Below are positions 20,578-35,949 of a stretch of 41,149 nucleotides of DNA, piece by piece. Positions within the stretch are counted from its first letter, which is position 1. Every line of letters starts with the position of its first letter. Both the position numbers and the translations under genes were made by a program. The stretch spans positions 1-41,149 of the forward strand of contig JAKBRL010000007.1 in assembly GCA_021845465.1 (NCBI GenBank). The letters are read 5' to 3'. This stretch comes from Microcaldota archaeon (GTDB lineage Archaea; Micrarchaeota; Micrarchaeia; Micrarchaeales; CABMGC01). The notes below the pieces were generated by a model. That model saw nothing but the letters and a program-made list of their open reading frames with translations. It did not search any database and was not told the DNA's origin.

Positions 20578-20645
20578 AACAGATTAAAAACTTAACTGTA
20601 TGCAAAGTCTTTTAATTAGAAAGGATTTAGTGATTATTGAGAATA

Positions 20646-22010
20646 ATGAAGATATCGAGAGAGATTTCAGAATATGTGAACTCAGTAGAATACGACGACA
20701 TTCCTGATAACGACGTAAAAAGGATGAAGAGGCTTATGCTCGATACGCTTGGTTGCGGAATAGGAGCAAAAAATGTACCTACAATATTAAAGGCAAAAAA
20801 TGCTGTCGCTGGGACCGGCAGCGGAAGATCTACTATTCTTGGTACTTCTGATAAGAAAGAGCCTGAGATTGCAGCATTCATAAACGGAGCAATGACAAGG
20901 TATTTCGATTTTAACGATACGTATGATTCTAAGGAGTTTTCTCATCCTAGCGACAATATAATGCCTATGCTTGCCGTTGCAGAGTCTGAGAAAAAAAGCG
21001 GAAGGGATGCGATACTCGCATGCATTCTTGCTTATGAGATACAGGCGAGGCTTGCAGATTCTGCGAATCTATGGAAGAAGGGGTGGGACCATGTCATATA
21101 CGGGCTTGTATCGGTGAGCGCATCGGCATCGCGTCTAATGAGGCTTGGCAATGACAAGACAGAGGAGGCAATAAATATAGCCCTGAATTCACATCTTGTA
21201 ATGAGGCAGGTAAGAGCAGGAACTCTTTCCGAATGGAAAGCTTTCGCTTTTTCTGAGGTTGGCAGGAATGCCATATTCTCAGCCAGGCTTGCCAGAGAAG
21301 GGATAACAGGCCCGGATCCCGTATTTGAGGGAGAGATGGGCTTCTTCAGGCAGGTAAGTGGAGAATTTAGGTTAAATACTAAGAGGTTTGGAGGAAATAG
21401 GGGTATCTTTAGGATAGGAAAGAATCTGATGAAATACTATCCTGCTGAAACAAGGGCACAGGCGGCCATATTTGCAGCCTTGGAACTTCGCCGCAAGATA
21501 AGATCAATAGATGAGATAGATGAAGTTGAGATAGGAGCAGGAGAAGCCACAGTAAGGGTAATAGGAAGCGGAGCTGAGAAGTGGAACCCTGAGACAAAGG
21601 AGACAGCAGATCATAGCATACCATACATAGTCGCCGCTGCGCTTATTGACGGAAGCATAGGAATAGAGACCTTCAATAGAGAGAGATTCAGAGACAAGAA
21701 GATAATTGAATTCATGAAAAAGATAAGGGTAAGGGAAGTGAAGAAGTACACATCTCTTTTCAATAAAGGAGGCACCGTGAATGCCGCCAGCCTCAAGATA
21801 AAGATGAAGAATCGGAAGACACTTTATAGTGAGGTATTGTATCCGAGAGGACATTGGAGGAACCCTATGAGCGATAGGGAAGTTGAAGATAAGTTTAAGA
21901 TGATTGCAGGGAAGGCCCTCAGCAAGCCCAAGATAGATAATGTCATATCGACAGTTTGGAATCTTGAGGAGCTTGGGGATATAGGCATTCTTTTTAAAAG
22001 ATTCTATTAG
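20646..22010 (+). CDS. MmgE/PrpD family dehydratase
   Basis: About 454 residues of the MmgE/PrpD (2-methylcitrate dehydratase) family; some members also dehydrate citrate or hydrate cis-aconitate. Family features: MLDTLGCGIGAK near the N-terminus, FDFNDTYDSKEFSHPSDNIMPMLAVAE (~83-109; the D-D/H-P-S segment forms the active site), YPAETRAQAA (~263) and GHWRNPMSDREVEDKF near the C-terminus. It is the first gene of a four-gene operon with a phosphosulfolactate-synthase-like protein (8 nt gap), isocitrate dehydrogenase and an MQO-like enzyme, converging on citrate synthase. That context points to citrate-to-isocitrate chemistry rather than propionate use, since no PrpB lyase is nearby. TTG at 20637 would add three residues. 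Confidence 0.88.
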   Translation: MKISREISEYVNSVEYDDIPDNDVKRMKRLMLDTLGCGIGAKNVPTILKAKNAVAGTGSGRSTILGTSDKKEPEIAAFINGAMTRYFDFNDTYDSKEFSHPSDNIMPMLAVAESEKKSGRDAILACILAYEIQARLADSANLWKKGWDHVIYGLVSVSASASRLMRLGNDKTEEAINIALNSHLVMRQVRAGTLSEWKAFAFSEVGRNAIFSARLAREGITGPDPVFEGEMGFFRQVSGEFRLNTKRFGGNRGIFRIGKNLMKYYPAETRAQAAIFAALELRRKIRSIDEIDEVEIGAGEATVRVIGSGAEKWNPETKETADHSIPYIVAAALIDGSIGIETFNRERFRDKKIIEFMKKIRVREVKKYTSLFNKGGTVNAASLKIKMKNRKTLYSEVLYPRGHWRNPMSDREVEDKFKMIAGKALSKPKIDNVISTVWNLEELGDIGILFKRFY

Positions 22011-22018
22011 GTAATTTT

Positions 22019-22857
22019 ATGGCAGATGACGCAAATAGAAAAGCTTTGGATTTTGTTGAGGTAGGAGAGTTGAGCAGTAAACCCAGAAAGAAGGGAATTA
22101 CAGAAGTCAGGGTTCCGTATTATGCGGCAACGCCTACATTGACATACATAAAGGATATCCTTGAAGAGTGGGGAGAGTATTTTGACGGAATGAAGTTTGC
22201 GTGCGGTACAATGAGATTGATGAAAAAGGAGCACGTCAGGAAGATAATAGATATGTGCCATAAGAACAATGTCTATGTCTCGACCGGAGGCTTTGTTGAA
22301 AGAGTATTGATACAGGGAGAAAAGGCAGTAGACAGATATTTCAAGGAATGCCGGGAACTGGGGTTCGATGTCATAGAGATATCAAGCGGCTTTGCAGATA
22401 TAAAGCTGGAGGATAAGCTTGCCATGGTTGAAAAGGTGCATGATATGGGAATGAAGCCCAAGCCCGAGATATCTTTGATGATAGGGGCTGGGGCCGGAAC
22501 CCACATAGCGGGATATAAGCCAAAGCTCAGGCCACTGAATCAGTTCTTCGAAGAGGCAAAGCAGCAGATAAAATCGGGAGCCGAAGTGATAATGATAGAA
22601 TCGGAGGGGCTTACTGAAGATATGCCTCCTGAGAAATGGAGGAAAGACGTAATATTGGAATTGATAAAGAAATTTGGATTTGGAAGATGGATGTTTGAGG
22701 CTGCTGATCCTGAAGTCTTCAAATGGTATCTGCTTAATGTCTCTAAAGATGTCAATCTTTTCATAGACCATACGCAGGTTACAGAATTTAATGTCTGGAG
22801 GCTTGGGCTCTGGGGCAATCCGAAGATATGGGAGGGTAAGAAAATTGCATACAAAGG

Positions 22858-22861
<4 letters not shown>
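22019..22861 (+). CDS. Phosphosulfolactate synthase (ComA) family protein
   Basis: A 280-residue TIM-barrel protein of the ComA/PSL synthase family, which in methanogens adds sulfite to phosphoenolpyruvate in coenzyme M synthesis. Recognisable family segments: GITEVRVPYY, FDGMKFACGTMRLM, VYVSTGGFVERV, GFDVIEISSGFADI, MKPKPEISLMIGAG, GAEVIMIESEGL, WMFEAADPEVFKWYLL, and a terminal VNLFIDHTQVTEFNVWRLGLWG. Relatives occur in many organisms without coenzyme M, where the role is unclear. Here it sits between the PrpD and isocitrate dehydrogenase genes (8 nt before, 4-nt overlap after), so its job may belong with this TCA-like set, perhaps PEP or enolate chemistry. That last part is inference. Confidence 0.85.
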
Positions 22862-23897
<1,036 letters not shown>

Positions 23898-23901
<4 letters not shown>

Positions 23902-25238
23902 GAAAGGAGATATACGACGTAATAATAGTTGGCGGAGGGATAACAGGGGCTTCCCTTTTATATACGCTTACAAGATATACAAAAATAAAAAAGATTCTTC
24001 TCCTTGAGAAGTATGACGATCTTGCAACCCTTAATTCCAATAGCAGGAATAACGCACAGACTCTGCATTTTGGAGACATAGAAACCAATTACTCGTTTGA
24101 GGAAGCGGCGAGGATAAAGAATGAGGCCGAGCGCGTTCTCAGGTATTTCAAGTTGCAGGATCCGAGGAGCAGGAATGAGATCATAAAAAAATGCCAGAAG
24201 ATGGTGCTCGGGATTGGCGGCGAAGAGATAGAATTTCTCGATGAATTATACAAAACAAGGCTCAAGAGGCTATTTCCCTCCAGCATGAAGCTGGAGAGGA
24301 AGGATATAGCCAGGCTTGAACCTTATGTTGTGAAGAATAGAAGTAAGGATGAGGAGATTGGAGCCCTTCTTTCAAAGACAGGATATATGATTGATTTCGG
24401 CAAGATGACACATATGTTTGCCTCGCAGGCCGAGTCGGAAGGAGGCGGGAGAGCAAGAATCCTCTTTAATGCAAGAGTAATGGGAATGGAAAAGAAAGGA
24501 AGCAGATACAGAGTATACACTTCAAAGAACGAGTATTTTTCAAGATTTGTAGTGTTTGCAACCGGAAGCTATAGCCTGTATTTTGCAAAATCAATAGGCA
24601 TTGATAAGAATCTCTCTATACTCTCGGTGGGAGGTGGCTTTTATACTTCCAAGAGGGTGCTGAACGGAAAGGTTTACAGGGTGCAGAAGGGAGGAATACC
24701 GTTTGCCGCAGTCCATGGAGATCCGGACATAGCAGATGAGAATATTACTAGATTTGGGCCTACAGTCAATATACCTCCAATGCTTGAAAAAAAACACCTG
24801 AATACGGTGATAGATTACATTAAGACCTTTGACTTTGATATGCCTACAATGGTAAGCCTGGAGAAAATACTTTTCAACAAAGACATAAAGAAGATAATTG
24901 CAAACAACATAGGCTATGGTATTCCGGTTATAGGAAAATACAGCTTCCTTAAGAAAGAGGCGGCGAGAATAGTTCCTTCGCTTAAGTATGGAAACCTCAA
25001 GCTTCATGGAGACATAGGAGGCATAAGGCCGCAGATGATTGATGAGAACAAGCAGTCTCTGGTGCTTGGTGCGGGAAAGATAAAGCATGATGGAGTGATA
25101 TTCAACATTACGCCTTCGCCTGGAGCATCATCATGCCTGGCCAACTCGCTTAAGGACATGCAGTACATTAGCGATTACCTTGGAGAAGAATTCAATAAAA
25201 GCAGATATGAAGCTGAGCTGGGGAAGATAGATAACTGA
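23898..25238 (+). CDS. mqo: FAD-dependent oxidoreductase, malate:quinone oxidoreductase-like
   Basis: A 446-residue flavoprotein. The FAD-binding Rossmann motif is VIIVGGGITGASLLYTL (residues 8-24). The stretch LNSNSRNNAQTLHFGDIETNYS matches in position and pattern the SSNPWNNAGTGH...ELNYT region of Mqo, and the C-terminal SPGASSCLANSLKDM matches the Mqo/GlpD-type flavin-contact end. Mqo oxidises malate to oxaloacetate and passes electrons to quinone at the membrane; 2-hydroxyglutarate oxidase (LhgO) is a related alternative. The upstream frame is open to 23850, but ATG 23898 overlaps the isocitrate dehydrogenase stop by four bases and starts right before the Rossmann strand. It would regenerate oxaloacetate for the convergent citrate synthase. 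Confidence 0.78.
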
Positions 25239-25270
25239 TCCGCATGTGCTGATCGCATTGCAGGCGTATC

Positions 25271-26431
25271 TTATCTTTCCGAGATGGGCTTGTATTCTAG
25301 GTCTATTTCTCCGCTGTAATAATCTAGAGGGCGTATCAGCCTGTTGTTCTTCCAGTACTCTATCACATGCGCACACCATCCAGCGCTTCTGCTTGCCGCA
25401 AATAGGGGAGTGAATATCTCCTTTGGTATTCCCAATGAAAGATAGACAGGGCCGGAGAAGAAATCGACATTAGGCCAGATTCCCTTCTGCTTGCCGAGCC
25501 TCTCTATCATTATTTTCTCTGCTTCCATCTCTATCTTTGCTAGCTTTCTTATCTTCTCATCGGCATCGCCTTCGAGCTCCTCTAGGTATTTTTTTATTAT
25601 TCTGGCTCTAGGATCGTAGTTTTTGTAGATTCTATGCCCGAATCCCATTATTCTTTTCTTGCCGGATAATGCATCATCTATATATGTTGAGGTATTTTCA
25701 GGCTCGCCTATGGCATAAAGCATACTCAGCGAAGCCTCATCTGCACCTCCGTGCAGCGGCCCCTTTAACGCACATATGCCGGCTACTATTGCAGAATAGA
25801 GGTCGCTTAAGGTAGACGCTGCGGCTATGGCGGTGAAGGTAGATGCGTTAGATCCGTGCTCAGCATGAAGGATCATCATTATGTCAAGTATTCTGGCATG
25901 TTTTGAATCCGGCGCTGTGCCTTTTAGCATGTATAGGAAGTTTGCAGCATGCCCAAGGGAGTGGTCCGGCTTTATGTAGTCGAGCCCTTTCCTGATGCGC
26001 TCTATTGCTGCTATTATGCTTGTTGATTTTGATATGATGTTTATGCTCTCTGCGAAATTCTCTTCGTCTGGATTTCCGGATTGTTTTTTCTGGTATGCCG
26101 GCAGTGCGGACATTGCAGTTCTAAGAATGTCCATTGGCATTGCAGTCTTAGCCATATCTTTTATTAGGTCTAATATGTTTTGAGGAATATCCCTTGATTC
26201 TTTCATCATTGCAGAGAATTTTTCCAGCTCTTCTCCTTTTGGCAATCTTCCATGCAGTATAAGATAGCATGTTTCTTCATATGTGGAGTTATCAGCAAGC
26301 GATTCTATAGAATATCCACAGTAGTAGAGCCTTCCGTTGATCCCGTCAATCATTGCTATTCTGCTCTCTCCGAAGTATATTCCCTCAAGCCCAAGATTTA
26401 TTGTTGGTTTTTCCTGCATTCTCTTACCCAT
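25271..26431 (-). CDS. gltA: Citrate synthase
   Basis: A 386-residue type I (short, archaeal/Gram-positive-like) citrate synthase that condenses oxaloacetate with acetyl-CoA; 2-methylcitrate synthases have the same fold and cannot be excluded. The catalytic triad is visible: His192 in HAEHGSNAST, His227 in GPLHGGADEA and Asp323 in WPNVDFFSG. Substrate residues His266/Arg267 are in MGFGHRIYKNYDPRA. The C-terminal AASRSAGWCAHVIEY with following Arg residues is typical. It is transcribed toward the PrpD-icd-mqo operon, with only 32 nt between the two stop codons. A TATA-like AATAAAATATT lies ~25 nt before the ATG. Together with the operon it makes a near-complete oxidative TCA branch. Confidence 0.93.
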   Translation of the reverse strand: MGKRMQEKPTINLGLEGIYFGESRIAMIDGINGRLYYCGYSIESLADNSTYEETCYLILHGRLPKGEELEKFSAMMKESRDIPQNILDLIKDMAKTAMPMDILRTAMSALPAYQKKQSGNPDEENFAESINIISKSTSIIAAIERIRKGLDYIKPDHSLGHAANFLYMLKGTAPDSKHARILDIMMILHAEHGSNASTFTAIAAASTLSDLYSAIVAGICALKGPLHGGADEASLSMLYAIGEPENTSTYIDDALSGKKRIMGFGHRIYKNYDPRARIIKKYLEELEGDADEKIRKLAKIEMEAEKIMIERLGKQKGIWPNVDFFSGPVYLSLGIPKEIFTPLFAASRSAGWCAHVIEYWKNNRLIRPLDYYSGEIDLEYKPISER

Positions 26432-29672: not shown

Positions 29673-29794
29673 TGGCGGAGGCGAGATTTGAACTCGCGAT
29701 CTCTAGATTTCTTAGCAGTCATCGTAAAAATACTCGTCACTCATAAAGCGTTGCATATGAGTCTAGCGCTCTAACCAGGCTGAGCTACTCCGCC
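29673..29794 (-). tRNA. tRNA-Met(CAU), probably elongator, with intron
   Basis: After removing 29709-29755 the minus strand folds as a 74-nt cloverleaf plus discriminator A: acceptor GGCGGAG/CTCCGCC, D stem GCTC/GAGC with loop AGCCTGGTTA, anticodon stem CTAGA/TCTAG with loop CTCATAA (anticodon CAT), a 5-nt variable region, and T stem GCGAG/CTCGC with loop TTCAAAT. CCA is not encoded. The CTCATAA loop and a G1-C72 start suit elongator tRNA-Met; tRNA-Ile2, which also has CAT before modification, cannot be fully excluded. Confidence 0.95.
29709..29755 (-). other. tRNA intron, 47 nt, after position 37
   Basis: A 47-nt insertion lies between A37 and A38, the canonical archaeal site. The anticodon side CTCATA can pair with TATGAG inside the intron, as expected for the central helix of a bulge-helix-bulge motif cut by the archaeal splicing endonuclease. 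Confidence 0.88.
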
Positions 29795-34156: not shown

Positions 34157-34510
34157 ATGATTTTCATGGCATCAAATGAGGAAAAGATAGGCAGGATAGT
34201 CTCTCTTGCTGAAGCTCGTGATATACTAGAGAAGAGAGAGAAGGAAGGAGACTTCGGCTATGAACAGACGCTTGCGCTTGACTACGCTAAGAGATTCTCT
34301 ACAATAGATACCAAACAGTCAGAAAGCCTGAAAAAGAAGCTTGAGGAACTTGGCATAAGCGAGAAGGTTGCCGTTTCCATAGCAAATATAATGCCTCTTG
34401 ACATAATGCAGATGAAGCAGATACTTGCAAATGAAAAGAAAGATGTGGAGCCTGACATAGCTGAAAAAGCTTTCTCTTTGGTAGAAGCTGGCAGAAGCAA
34501 AGGTAAATAA
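34157..34510 (+). CDS. rpoF: RNA polymerase subunit Rpb4/F
   Basis: A 117-residue subunit F (Rpb4), which with Rpb7/E forms the stalk of archaeal RNA polymerase and helps initiation and elongation. Family features: the N-terminal LAEARDILEKREKEGDFGYEQTLALDYAKRF and the C-terminal HRDC-like half (SLKKKLEELGISEKVAVSIANIMPLDIMQMKQILAN). ATG 34157 is 26 nt from the TATA centre; ATG 34166 is a second choice. The DUF655 gene follows after 20 nt. In many archaea eL21 directly precedes rpoF; here eL21 lies ~1.1 kb downstream instead. Confidence 0.9.
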   Translation: MIFMASNEEKIGRIVSLAEARDILEKREKEGDFGYEQTLALDYAKRFSTIDTKQSESLKKKLEELGISEKVAVSIANIMPLDIMQMKQILANEKKDVEPDIAEKAFSLVEAGRSKGK

Positions 34511-35223: not shown

Positions 35224-35586
35224 CTATTTCTTTTCGTCTTCGTCGGTTTGCGGAACCAGTATGTATTTTTGCACAGTCTTTATCATTATGTCTATTGCCC
35301 TGTGTATGTCCGCTTCTGTCTTCGAGCCTGTGCAGATTACCTTGCCGTTCTTGAAGAGCAGGAGTGCAGTCTTTGGGTTGTGTATCTTGTATATTGCGCC
35401 TGGGAACTGCTCGGGCTCATAGTCTACATCCGGAGATGCCTTTGCTATCGCATATAGATCGAGCTCTACGCCCAAATCAGCACTTGCGACTATGTTCTCT
35501 ATCTTAAAATCCGGTTTCAGGGATATCTTTGGCGCCTTCTGTGCCTTCTTATGGCCAGGTTCTTTTTTTGAATTAGTATTTGGCAT
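35224..35586 (-). CDS. Single-repeat TATA-binding-protein domain protein
   Basis: A 120-residue protein with only one TBP repeat (~residues 28-108), where archaeal and eukaryotic TBP have two in ~180 residues. The repeat is well preserved: KIENIVASADLGVELDL, YEPEQFPGAIYKI, PKTALLLFKNGKVICTG and a final amphipathic helix. The ENIVASADLG start resembles the second repeat of ordinary TBP. The DNA-kinking Phe positions (QFPG and LLFKNGK) are kept. The N-terminal ~27 residues are a Lys-rich tail and the C-terminus is acidic (QTDEDEKK). There is no room for a lost second repeat: eL21 starts 75 nt away on one side and DUF655 ends 111 nt away on the other. It could bind promoter DNA as a homodimer. 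GTG 35595 is an alternative start at the spacing of the TATA box. Confidence 0.85.
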   Translation of the reverse strand: MPNTNSKKEPGHKKAQKAPKISLKPDFKIENIVASADLGVELDLYAIAKASPDVDYEPEQFPGAIYKIHNPKTALLLFKNGKVICTGSKTEADIHRAIDIMIKTVQKYILVPQTDEDEKK

Positions 35587-35615
35587 CAGTACCACGTGTA
35601 GATATGCAGTGAAGG

Positions 35616-35623
35616 TATTTATA
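35616..35623 (-). promoter_or_regulatory. TATA box of the single-repeat TBP gene
   Basis: TATAAATA on the minus strand, centre ~25 nt from GTG 35595 and ~33 from ATG 35586. The divergent eL21 start is ~40 nt on the other side, so the two promoters are very close. Confidence 0.5.
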
Positions 35624-35661: not shown

Positions 35662-35949
35662 ATGAGTTCTTCAAAGGGGCTTTTTTCAAGAAATACTAGA
35701 AAGCTTTCAAGGCATATAAGACCTTCAGAGATGGGAATAACCAAGAAGATAAAGAATTTTGAGAACGGCAGCAAGGTTGTTGTTATGCCTAGGAGCACAA
35801 GCAACAGAAGCGTTCCGCATCCCAGATACAAGGGAAGAATAGGCGTGGTTATTGAGAAGAGAGGAGACGCGTATGTTGTCGAAATAGCGGTAAGCAAATC
35901 CACAAAGAGGACATTGATAGTTCCGCAGATGCATCTTCAGAAAGCCTGA
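35662..35949 (+). CDS. rpl21e: Ribosomal protein eL21
   Basis: A 95-residue basic large-subunit protein of the archaeal/eukaryotic eL21 family. It starts with MSSSKGLFSRNTRKLSRHIR and has the KNFENGSKVVVMPRSTSNRSVPHPRYKGRIGVVIEKRGDAYVVEIAV core (SH3-like barrel, ~32-78) with the conserved PHPRYKGRIGVV. Length is normal. It is divergent from the TBP-like gene with ~75 nt between starts, and stands apart from rpoF/DUF655, which usually adjoin it. The ~160 nt after it (35950-36109) hold no supported gene. Confidence 0.93.
   Translation: MSSSKGLFSRNTRKLSRHIRPSEMGITKKIKNFENGSKVVVMPRSTSNRSVPHPRYKGRIGVVIEKRGDAYVVEIAVSKSTKRTLIVPQMHLQKA

Follow-up and report, generated by a model that had tools for sequence, protein, structure and literature searches.

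Nearly all archaea and eukaryotes possess the TATA-box-binding protein (TBP), whose internal repeat is a textbook example of an old duplication followed by fusion. The locus analysed here raises the question whether a TBP with a single repeat, or lobe, can serve as the general TBP of a cell. It lies in a stretch of 41,149 nucleotides of a Microcaldota archaeon (Micrarchaeota; assembly GCA_021845465.1, contig JAKBRL010000007.1), which as a whole is called the window in the following. We consider it likely that the gene encodes the general TBP of this organism in a one-lobe form, which would act as a dimer together with an ordinary TFB. The gene, its lobe and its candidate promoter are located as follows.

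35224..35595, minus strand: half-1, the one-lobe TBP gene; its product has 123 aa if translated from GTG 35595 and 120 aa if from ATG 35586
35263..35511, minus strand: single TBP lobe, residues 29-111, with the YEPEQFPG stirrup and the second Phe in LLLF
35616..35623, minus strand: TATAAATA, candidate TATA box for this gene; it starts 37 nt upstream of ATG 35586

Of the two possible start codons, ATG 35586 is the more probable, and the close database relatives P0006 and P0009 favour it. By sequence profile the protein contains a TBP lobe, as Pfam PF00352 matches residues 29-111 over profile positions 1-85 of 85 with 103.6 bits (cut-off 22.9), and this is the only PF00352 stretch in the chain. 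The best NCBIfam TBP model reached 95 bits against a cut-off of 255. In a filter-off hidden Markov model scan of the 834 open frames of at least 25 aa in the window, the lobe scored E 2.5e-40 and the next-best match E 1.6, and neither a second lobe nor a remnant of one was seen. These results bear out the first-pass annotation, made from the letters alone, which had described a half-size TBP with one repeat, both Phe positions, a Lys-rich N-tail and an acidic C-tail. In the sequence the two Phe lie in PEQFPG and LLF, and the C-tail is short (TDEDEKK). In contrast, the canonical archaeal TBPs of Pyrococcus woesei (1PCZ/1AIS), M. jannaschii (2Z8U) and S. acidocaldarius (1MP9) carry two lobes per chain, and all 35 distinct sequences matched in the PDB have at least 179 residues.

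Both DNA-kinking Phe of a TBP lobe are present in the window protein, and the Glu pair contacting TFB is found as YEPEQFPG. The TFB-contacting Glu positions are C.L3.2 and C.L3.4 according to section 11 of PMC7221094. Among 126 distinct single-lobe sequences from the sampled loci, in which related rows are counted separately, 125 contain the stirrup Phe together with the second Phe, and each of the two Glu positions is kept in 124. The placement of C.L3.2 and C.L3.4 on YEPEQFPG is our own mapping, based on that section and on the human numbering. Loss of DNA-facing residues in relatives, named at first pass as an observation that would refute its reading, was looked for and not found. In the AlphaFold2 model of the window half alone, the block means of the predicted local distance difference test (pLDDT) are 90-94 over residues 41-110 with an overall mean of 78; the tails are poor and the first strand is broken (pLDDT 72-79), whereas this strand is continuous in each lobe of the predicted two-lobe protein P0003. 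As far as predicted models go, the difference agrees with a pairing across the first strand.

The nearest comparison genome (G001, 82% complete) has 70% of the sampled 31-letter words in common with the window. A protein identical to the window TBP is encoded by this genome (L001) and by Candidatus Micrarchaeota archaeon MAS1.bin37 (L054). A second one-lobe gene, half-2, is located at a separate locus of G001 (L002, 102 aa, lobe 52% identical); a third weak match (L003, E 0.024) looks like chance (rescored E 0.059, 5 bits). TBP matches were found in 59 of 60 near relatives, each in its own open frame except in G022, and none of these 59 genomes contains a complete two-lobe TBP open reading frame. 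In detail, family f1 (37 genomes) comprises 22 genomes with two one-lobe genes, 14 with one and G022 with a two-lobe gene cut by the contig end, and family f2 (23 genomes) has two one-lobe genes in 20 genomes, three in G055, one in G053 and none in G058. The suggestion that the half is a regulator pairing with a normal TBP is not supported, as no such TBP was found in any of the 59 matching near relatives; a second, paralogous half is nonetheless frequent.

To relate one-lobe and two-lobe genes to each other, gene neighbourhoods were compared. The following genes surround the TBP gene of the window and are its conserved neighbours.

34157..34510, plus strand: Rpo4 (Rpb4) RNA polymerase subunit, Pfam PF03874
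34519..35112, plus strand: DUF655 protein, Pfam PF04919
35662..35949, plus strand: ribosomal protein eL21, Pfam PF01157, divergent from the TBP gene

A gap of 111 bases separates the end of the DUF655 gene (35112) from the TBP stop codon, and eL21 starts divergently at 35662. At the loci sampled from families f1-f26, the TBP gene adjoins eL21, Rpo4 and/or DUF655 in 24 of 26 families (all except f24 and f25), irrespective of one lobe or two; Rpo4 and DUF655 differ between loci in their exact order and in strand. In the Diapherotrites phylum, too, there are loci with TBP beside one or more of these three genes. None of 13 half-2 loci of f1 and f2 shows such neighbours. As this neighbourhood is common to half-1 and the two-lobe genes and is not found for half-2, half-1 is taken as the ortholog of the two-lobe TBP and half-2 as a paralog. 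The one-lobe and two-lobe TBPs of the phylum look like one orthologous gene, and the window gene occupies the position of known TBP genes.

Two well-assembled relatives show a half or halves as the only TBP found. G034, a single joined contig of 771,545 bases (93% complete), contains one TBP lobe (E 1.7e-40), and with filters off no other TBP match on the whole contig was better than E 4.2. The complete chromosome of Ca. Fermentimicrarchaeum limneticum (Sv326) encodes three one-lobe TBPs in separate frames of 106, 114 and 118 aa. In neither was a two-lobe TBP found, and halves are the sole or main TBP in these two relatives. Of 36 genomes selected for a TFB search, 35 encode a TFB that has at least two TFIIB repeats. 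Because some relatives carry no second one-lobe paralog, one half can suffice. A core role of the half, as proposed at first pass, is therefore upheld by its position as ortholog of the two-lobe TBP and by the one-lobe nature of the only TBPs in the single-contig and complete genomes; a complete two-repeat TBP, whose presence would have spoken for an accessory protein, was looked for in the relatives' genomes and not found.

Across the phylum, TBP matches were obtained in 272 of 295 genomes and in 23 there was none. One-lobe genes occur in families f2, f8-f11, f13-f15, f17, f19, f21, f22, f24 and f25 and two-lobe genes in f3-f7, f12, f16, f18, f20, f23 and f26, an assignment based on 56 genomes of f2-f26 picked for completeness and spread, with TBP sequences compared from one or a few genomes per family. 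Two genomes of the otherwise two-lobe family f6 (G143 and G243) have a single match in a 144-aa frame, which in G243 starts 99 bases from a contig end. The two-lobe TBPs of these families differ from the window protein in having two lobes per chain, and share with it the locus and mostly the signature LLLFKNGK. TBP matches above the cut-off occur in 16 of 19 genomes of the Diapherotrites phylum (to which L117 belongs), and most of these matches lie in frames of 88-230 aa with a single lobe; two-lobe genes are present there in G309 and G310. A two-lobe TBP in G094 is likely a contaminant (ordinary euryarchaeal type on a contig of 8,383 bases) and was kept out of the trees. In a plasmid search 77 records matched, and the 20 listed among them are haloarchaeal.

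Several unusual arrangements of TBP lobes were also noted. The Diapherotrites genome G309 contains a frame of 726 aa in which four divergent TBP lobes precede a part with a likely membrane segment (L311, 1964-4141, plus strand), and in G316 of the same phylum two degenerate lobes stand behind a putative lipoprotein signal peptide (L312, 1288-1941, plus strand); if extracellular, this would be a very odd place for TBP lobes. In G159 a degenerate second single lobe lacks the PEQFPG stirrup (L209, 2450-2764, plus strand). Seven TBPs with three lobes (P0242-P0248, 269-289 aa) were found, P0243 being of haloarchaeal type; adjacent lobes of P0242-P0244 are near-copies over long stretches and may be fresh duplications or assembly artefacts.

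How could a half work as a general factor? Most simply, the sole half would form a homodimer. Two copies would pair back to back via the first strand and build the saddle that is elsewhere made by one two-lobe chain; each copy would contribute one Phe pair to the bending of the TATA box, either could offer its Glu-Pro-Glu stirrup to an ordinary TFB, and TFB with its TFB recognition element (BRE) would set the direction of transcription. In the genus of the window the half-2 paralog may heterodimerise with half-1. The two-lobe TBPs inside the clade would have arisen by later head-to-tail duplication of the half. The single lobe, the sole-TBP state of a single-contig and a complete relative, the orthology by position, the conserved contact residues and the lobe phylogeny are shown here, and dimerisation, TATA bending, TFB recruitment and the evolutionary direction are inferred.

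For the promoter analysis, start codons were assigned by a crude rule. In G034, 396 upstream regions yielded a TATA-like motif with a likelihood gain of 208 at width 8 compared to 33-48 in three shuffles, and 200 upstream regions of the two-lobe genome G134 a motif with a gain of 104 versus 26-28 shuffled. Most top start positions of the G034 motif lie 28-44 nt before the start codons, and at widths 12 and 16 AA is gained upstream. As this motif is found upstream of its genes, TATA-like promoters do exist in a genome whose only TBP is a half, and the position of the candidate TATA box TATAAATA in the window agrees with it.

Sequence comparison of the lobes revealed that some relatives carry what is, by sequence, a fresh head-to-tail duplication of the half. 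The lobes of P0002-P0005 are 87-93% identical and nested inside half-1 of family f1 (support 100/90), and the N-tail of the half is present again in the second unit; G022 is similar, with identical lobe tails in the gene cut by the contig end. The lobes of the two-lobe TBPs in other families of the phylum are also often far more alike than those of other archaea, which are 41-52% identical to each other in P. woesei, M. jannaschii and S. acidocaldarius (34, 43 and 38 of 82). In a tree of 178 lobes and 82 columns (L209, L027 and L033 dropped), a single clan (100/96), separate from the N and C lobes of the references, unites all 138 lobes of the clade, single or paired. For 86 lobes of two-lobe proteins, grouping all N lobes was rejected by the approximately unbiased (AU) test (log-likelihood 170 lower, p-AU 9.5e-5). 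Taken by themselves, the 28 reference lobes do separate into an N and a C group, if weakly (67/33), and for the 58 lobes of the clade N/C sorting was rejected (141 lower, p-AU 6.9e-5). As the lobes fail this sorting, the two-lobe TBPs of the clade are not simple descendants of the standard TBP, unless conversion erased the signal.

Taken together, the window protein is a real and conserved one-lobe general TBP that most likely acts as a dimer. Several points weigh against this reading or the history connected with it. That a two-lobe TBP is lacking in the species of the window is concluded from relatives, most of which are incomplete metagenome-assembled genomes (MAGs). G058 (92% complete) has no TBP at all, G053 one of the usual two, and G029 (94% complete) no TFB match; two half-1-type loci of f2 (L177 and L186) are without any of the three neighbours. 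The half was modelled as a lone chain, and a monomer acting with TFB may also fit. The motif symmetry of G034 is about like that of G134 at widths 10 (0.459 versus 0.494), 12 (0.475 versus 0.497) and 16 (0.153 versus 0.175), and the G034 motif is the more symmetric one at widths 6 (0.064 versus 0.171) and 8 (0.107 versus 0.400), where the registers differ between the two genomes; a symmetric TATA box as sign of a homodimer thus receives no clear support. In the lobe tree only 82 columns per lobe are available and the bootstrap is unsettled, four of the 20 N lobes used as reference (M. jannaschii, Thermococcales) were placed with the C lobes, and the AU tests were run after the first tree had been seen. 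An appearance of repeated duplication could also be produced by concerted evolution of the lobes.

This last point leads to a history that we rate somewhat below an even chance, namely a secondary reduction in which the lobes of a two-lobe ancestor were homogenised and one of them was then lost several times. All reference TBPs used from outside the clade have at least two lobes, and recently identical stretches between lobes (P0048, G022) would also result from gene conversion. On the other hand, in a marker tree built with eL21, Rpo4 and DUF655 of 93 loci (60 one-lobe, 33 two-lobe), the basal genes have one lobe, those with two lobes branch further inside, and only two changes are needed (1-2 over bootstraps). 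For this tree, 152 loci with at least two marker genes were reduced to 116 by removing 36 near-duplicates and to 93 by removing 23 more. The root was set by nine Diapherotrites loci chosen by synteny, all one-lobe; the outgroup needed such neighbours, and the two-lobe loci L227 and L228 of this phylum stand outside the tree. The rooting is an assumption, and the phylum itself has two-lobe genes in G309 and G310; with an outgroup picked by synteny and entirely one-lobe the tree is support, not proof. Furthermore, the repeated N-tail in P0002-P0005 suggests a change from the half to the double form. For Micrarchaeota plus Diapherotrites the ancestral state is probably one lobe.

A more far-reaching idea, which we regard as tentative and rather unlikely, is that both phyla keep a homodimeric TBP from before the N/C duplication, and that the two-lobe form was reinvented several times (in the two-lobe families of Micrarchaeota, in f1 and in Diapherotrites), independently of the N/C duplication of other archaea and eukaryotes. 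The marker tree bears on these two phyla only and not on the age of the half relative to that duplication; with its three clans the lobe tree offers no root relative to the standard N and C lobes, and among DPANN phyla our sampling covers these two. Of the closeness to the pre-duplication ancestor considered at first pass, a single ancestral lobe looks likely for Micrarchaeota plus Diapherotrites, and a place before the standard lobes does not follow from the lobe tree.

It seems improbable that a standard TBP was split into two genes, with half-1 as its N lobe and half-2 as its C lobe, and that the two work as an obligate heterodimer. Two one-lobe genes are indeed present in G001 and in 22 of 37 f1 genomes, and exactly two in 20 of 23 f2 genomes, and half-2 often begins with IQNIV like many C lobes and half-1 with IENIV like many N lobes. 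In the lobe tree, however, the half-1 and half-2 lobes of families f1 and f2 group together (98/89, 41 lobes) and not with the reference N and C lobes, the mean identity of half-2 is even (33.3% to reference N lobes, 34.0% to C lobes), and 14 of 37 f1 genomes have a single match and G034 exactly one lobe, so that the split was rejected. Most relatives are incomplete MAGs and 23 of 295 genomes lack any TBP match, yet an accessory or regulatory TBP-fold protein, with the true TBP in an unassembled part of the genome, is hardly credible in view of the halves-only single-contig genome and complete chromosome, the shared locus with the two-lobe TBPs and the near invariant contact residues.

Two other features of the window were recorded. 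An Rfam tRNA match of 61.7 bits at 29673-29794 (minus strand) is not reported by ARAGORN; since the 71-position model spreads over 122 bases, it is probably an intron-containing tRNA. At 20637-26431 Pfam matches indicate a cluster of genes for MmgE/PrpD, a ComA-like protein, isocitrate/isopropylmalate dehydrogenase, an FAD oxidoreductase (DAO/Mqo-like) and citrate synthase.

Archaeal proteins with a single TBP domain were reportedly described by Brindefalk and co-workers in 2013. The accessible passages of Ravarani et al. 2020 (PMC7221094) state, citing an earlier study, that single-lobe TBPs exist in archaea, and the single-lobe TBP as such is therefore already known. Like the window protein, the proteins in these passages have one lobe only, and they are not called there the sole TBP, placed at the TBP locus or said to be re-duplicated; no published account of these three properties was found, with subscription journals thinly covered. 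Bacterial RNase HIII also carries a TBP-like lobe, but within a nuclease (PMC7221094 and PMC8131849), and bacterial TBP-like lobes have mostly Tyr or His at the Phe position (PMC7221094, section 7). TFB and TBP are among the factors conserved in about 88.8% of DPANN genomes according to a passage of PMC8407392 that is silent on TBP size.

The half poses the question of how transcription is directed from a possibly symmetric TBP, presumably via TFB and BRE. With one-lobe cells and relatives in which the half is doubled at the same locus, the duplication step of TBP becomes directly testable. For the question of how the TBP repeat originated, the one-lobe TBP offers a strong test case, and a step believed to have vanished long ago may be accessible to study in cells alive today.
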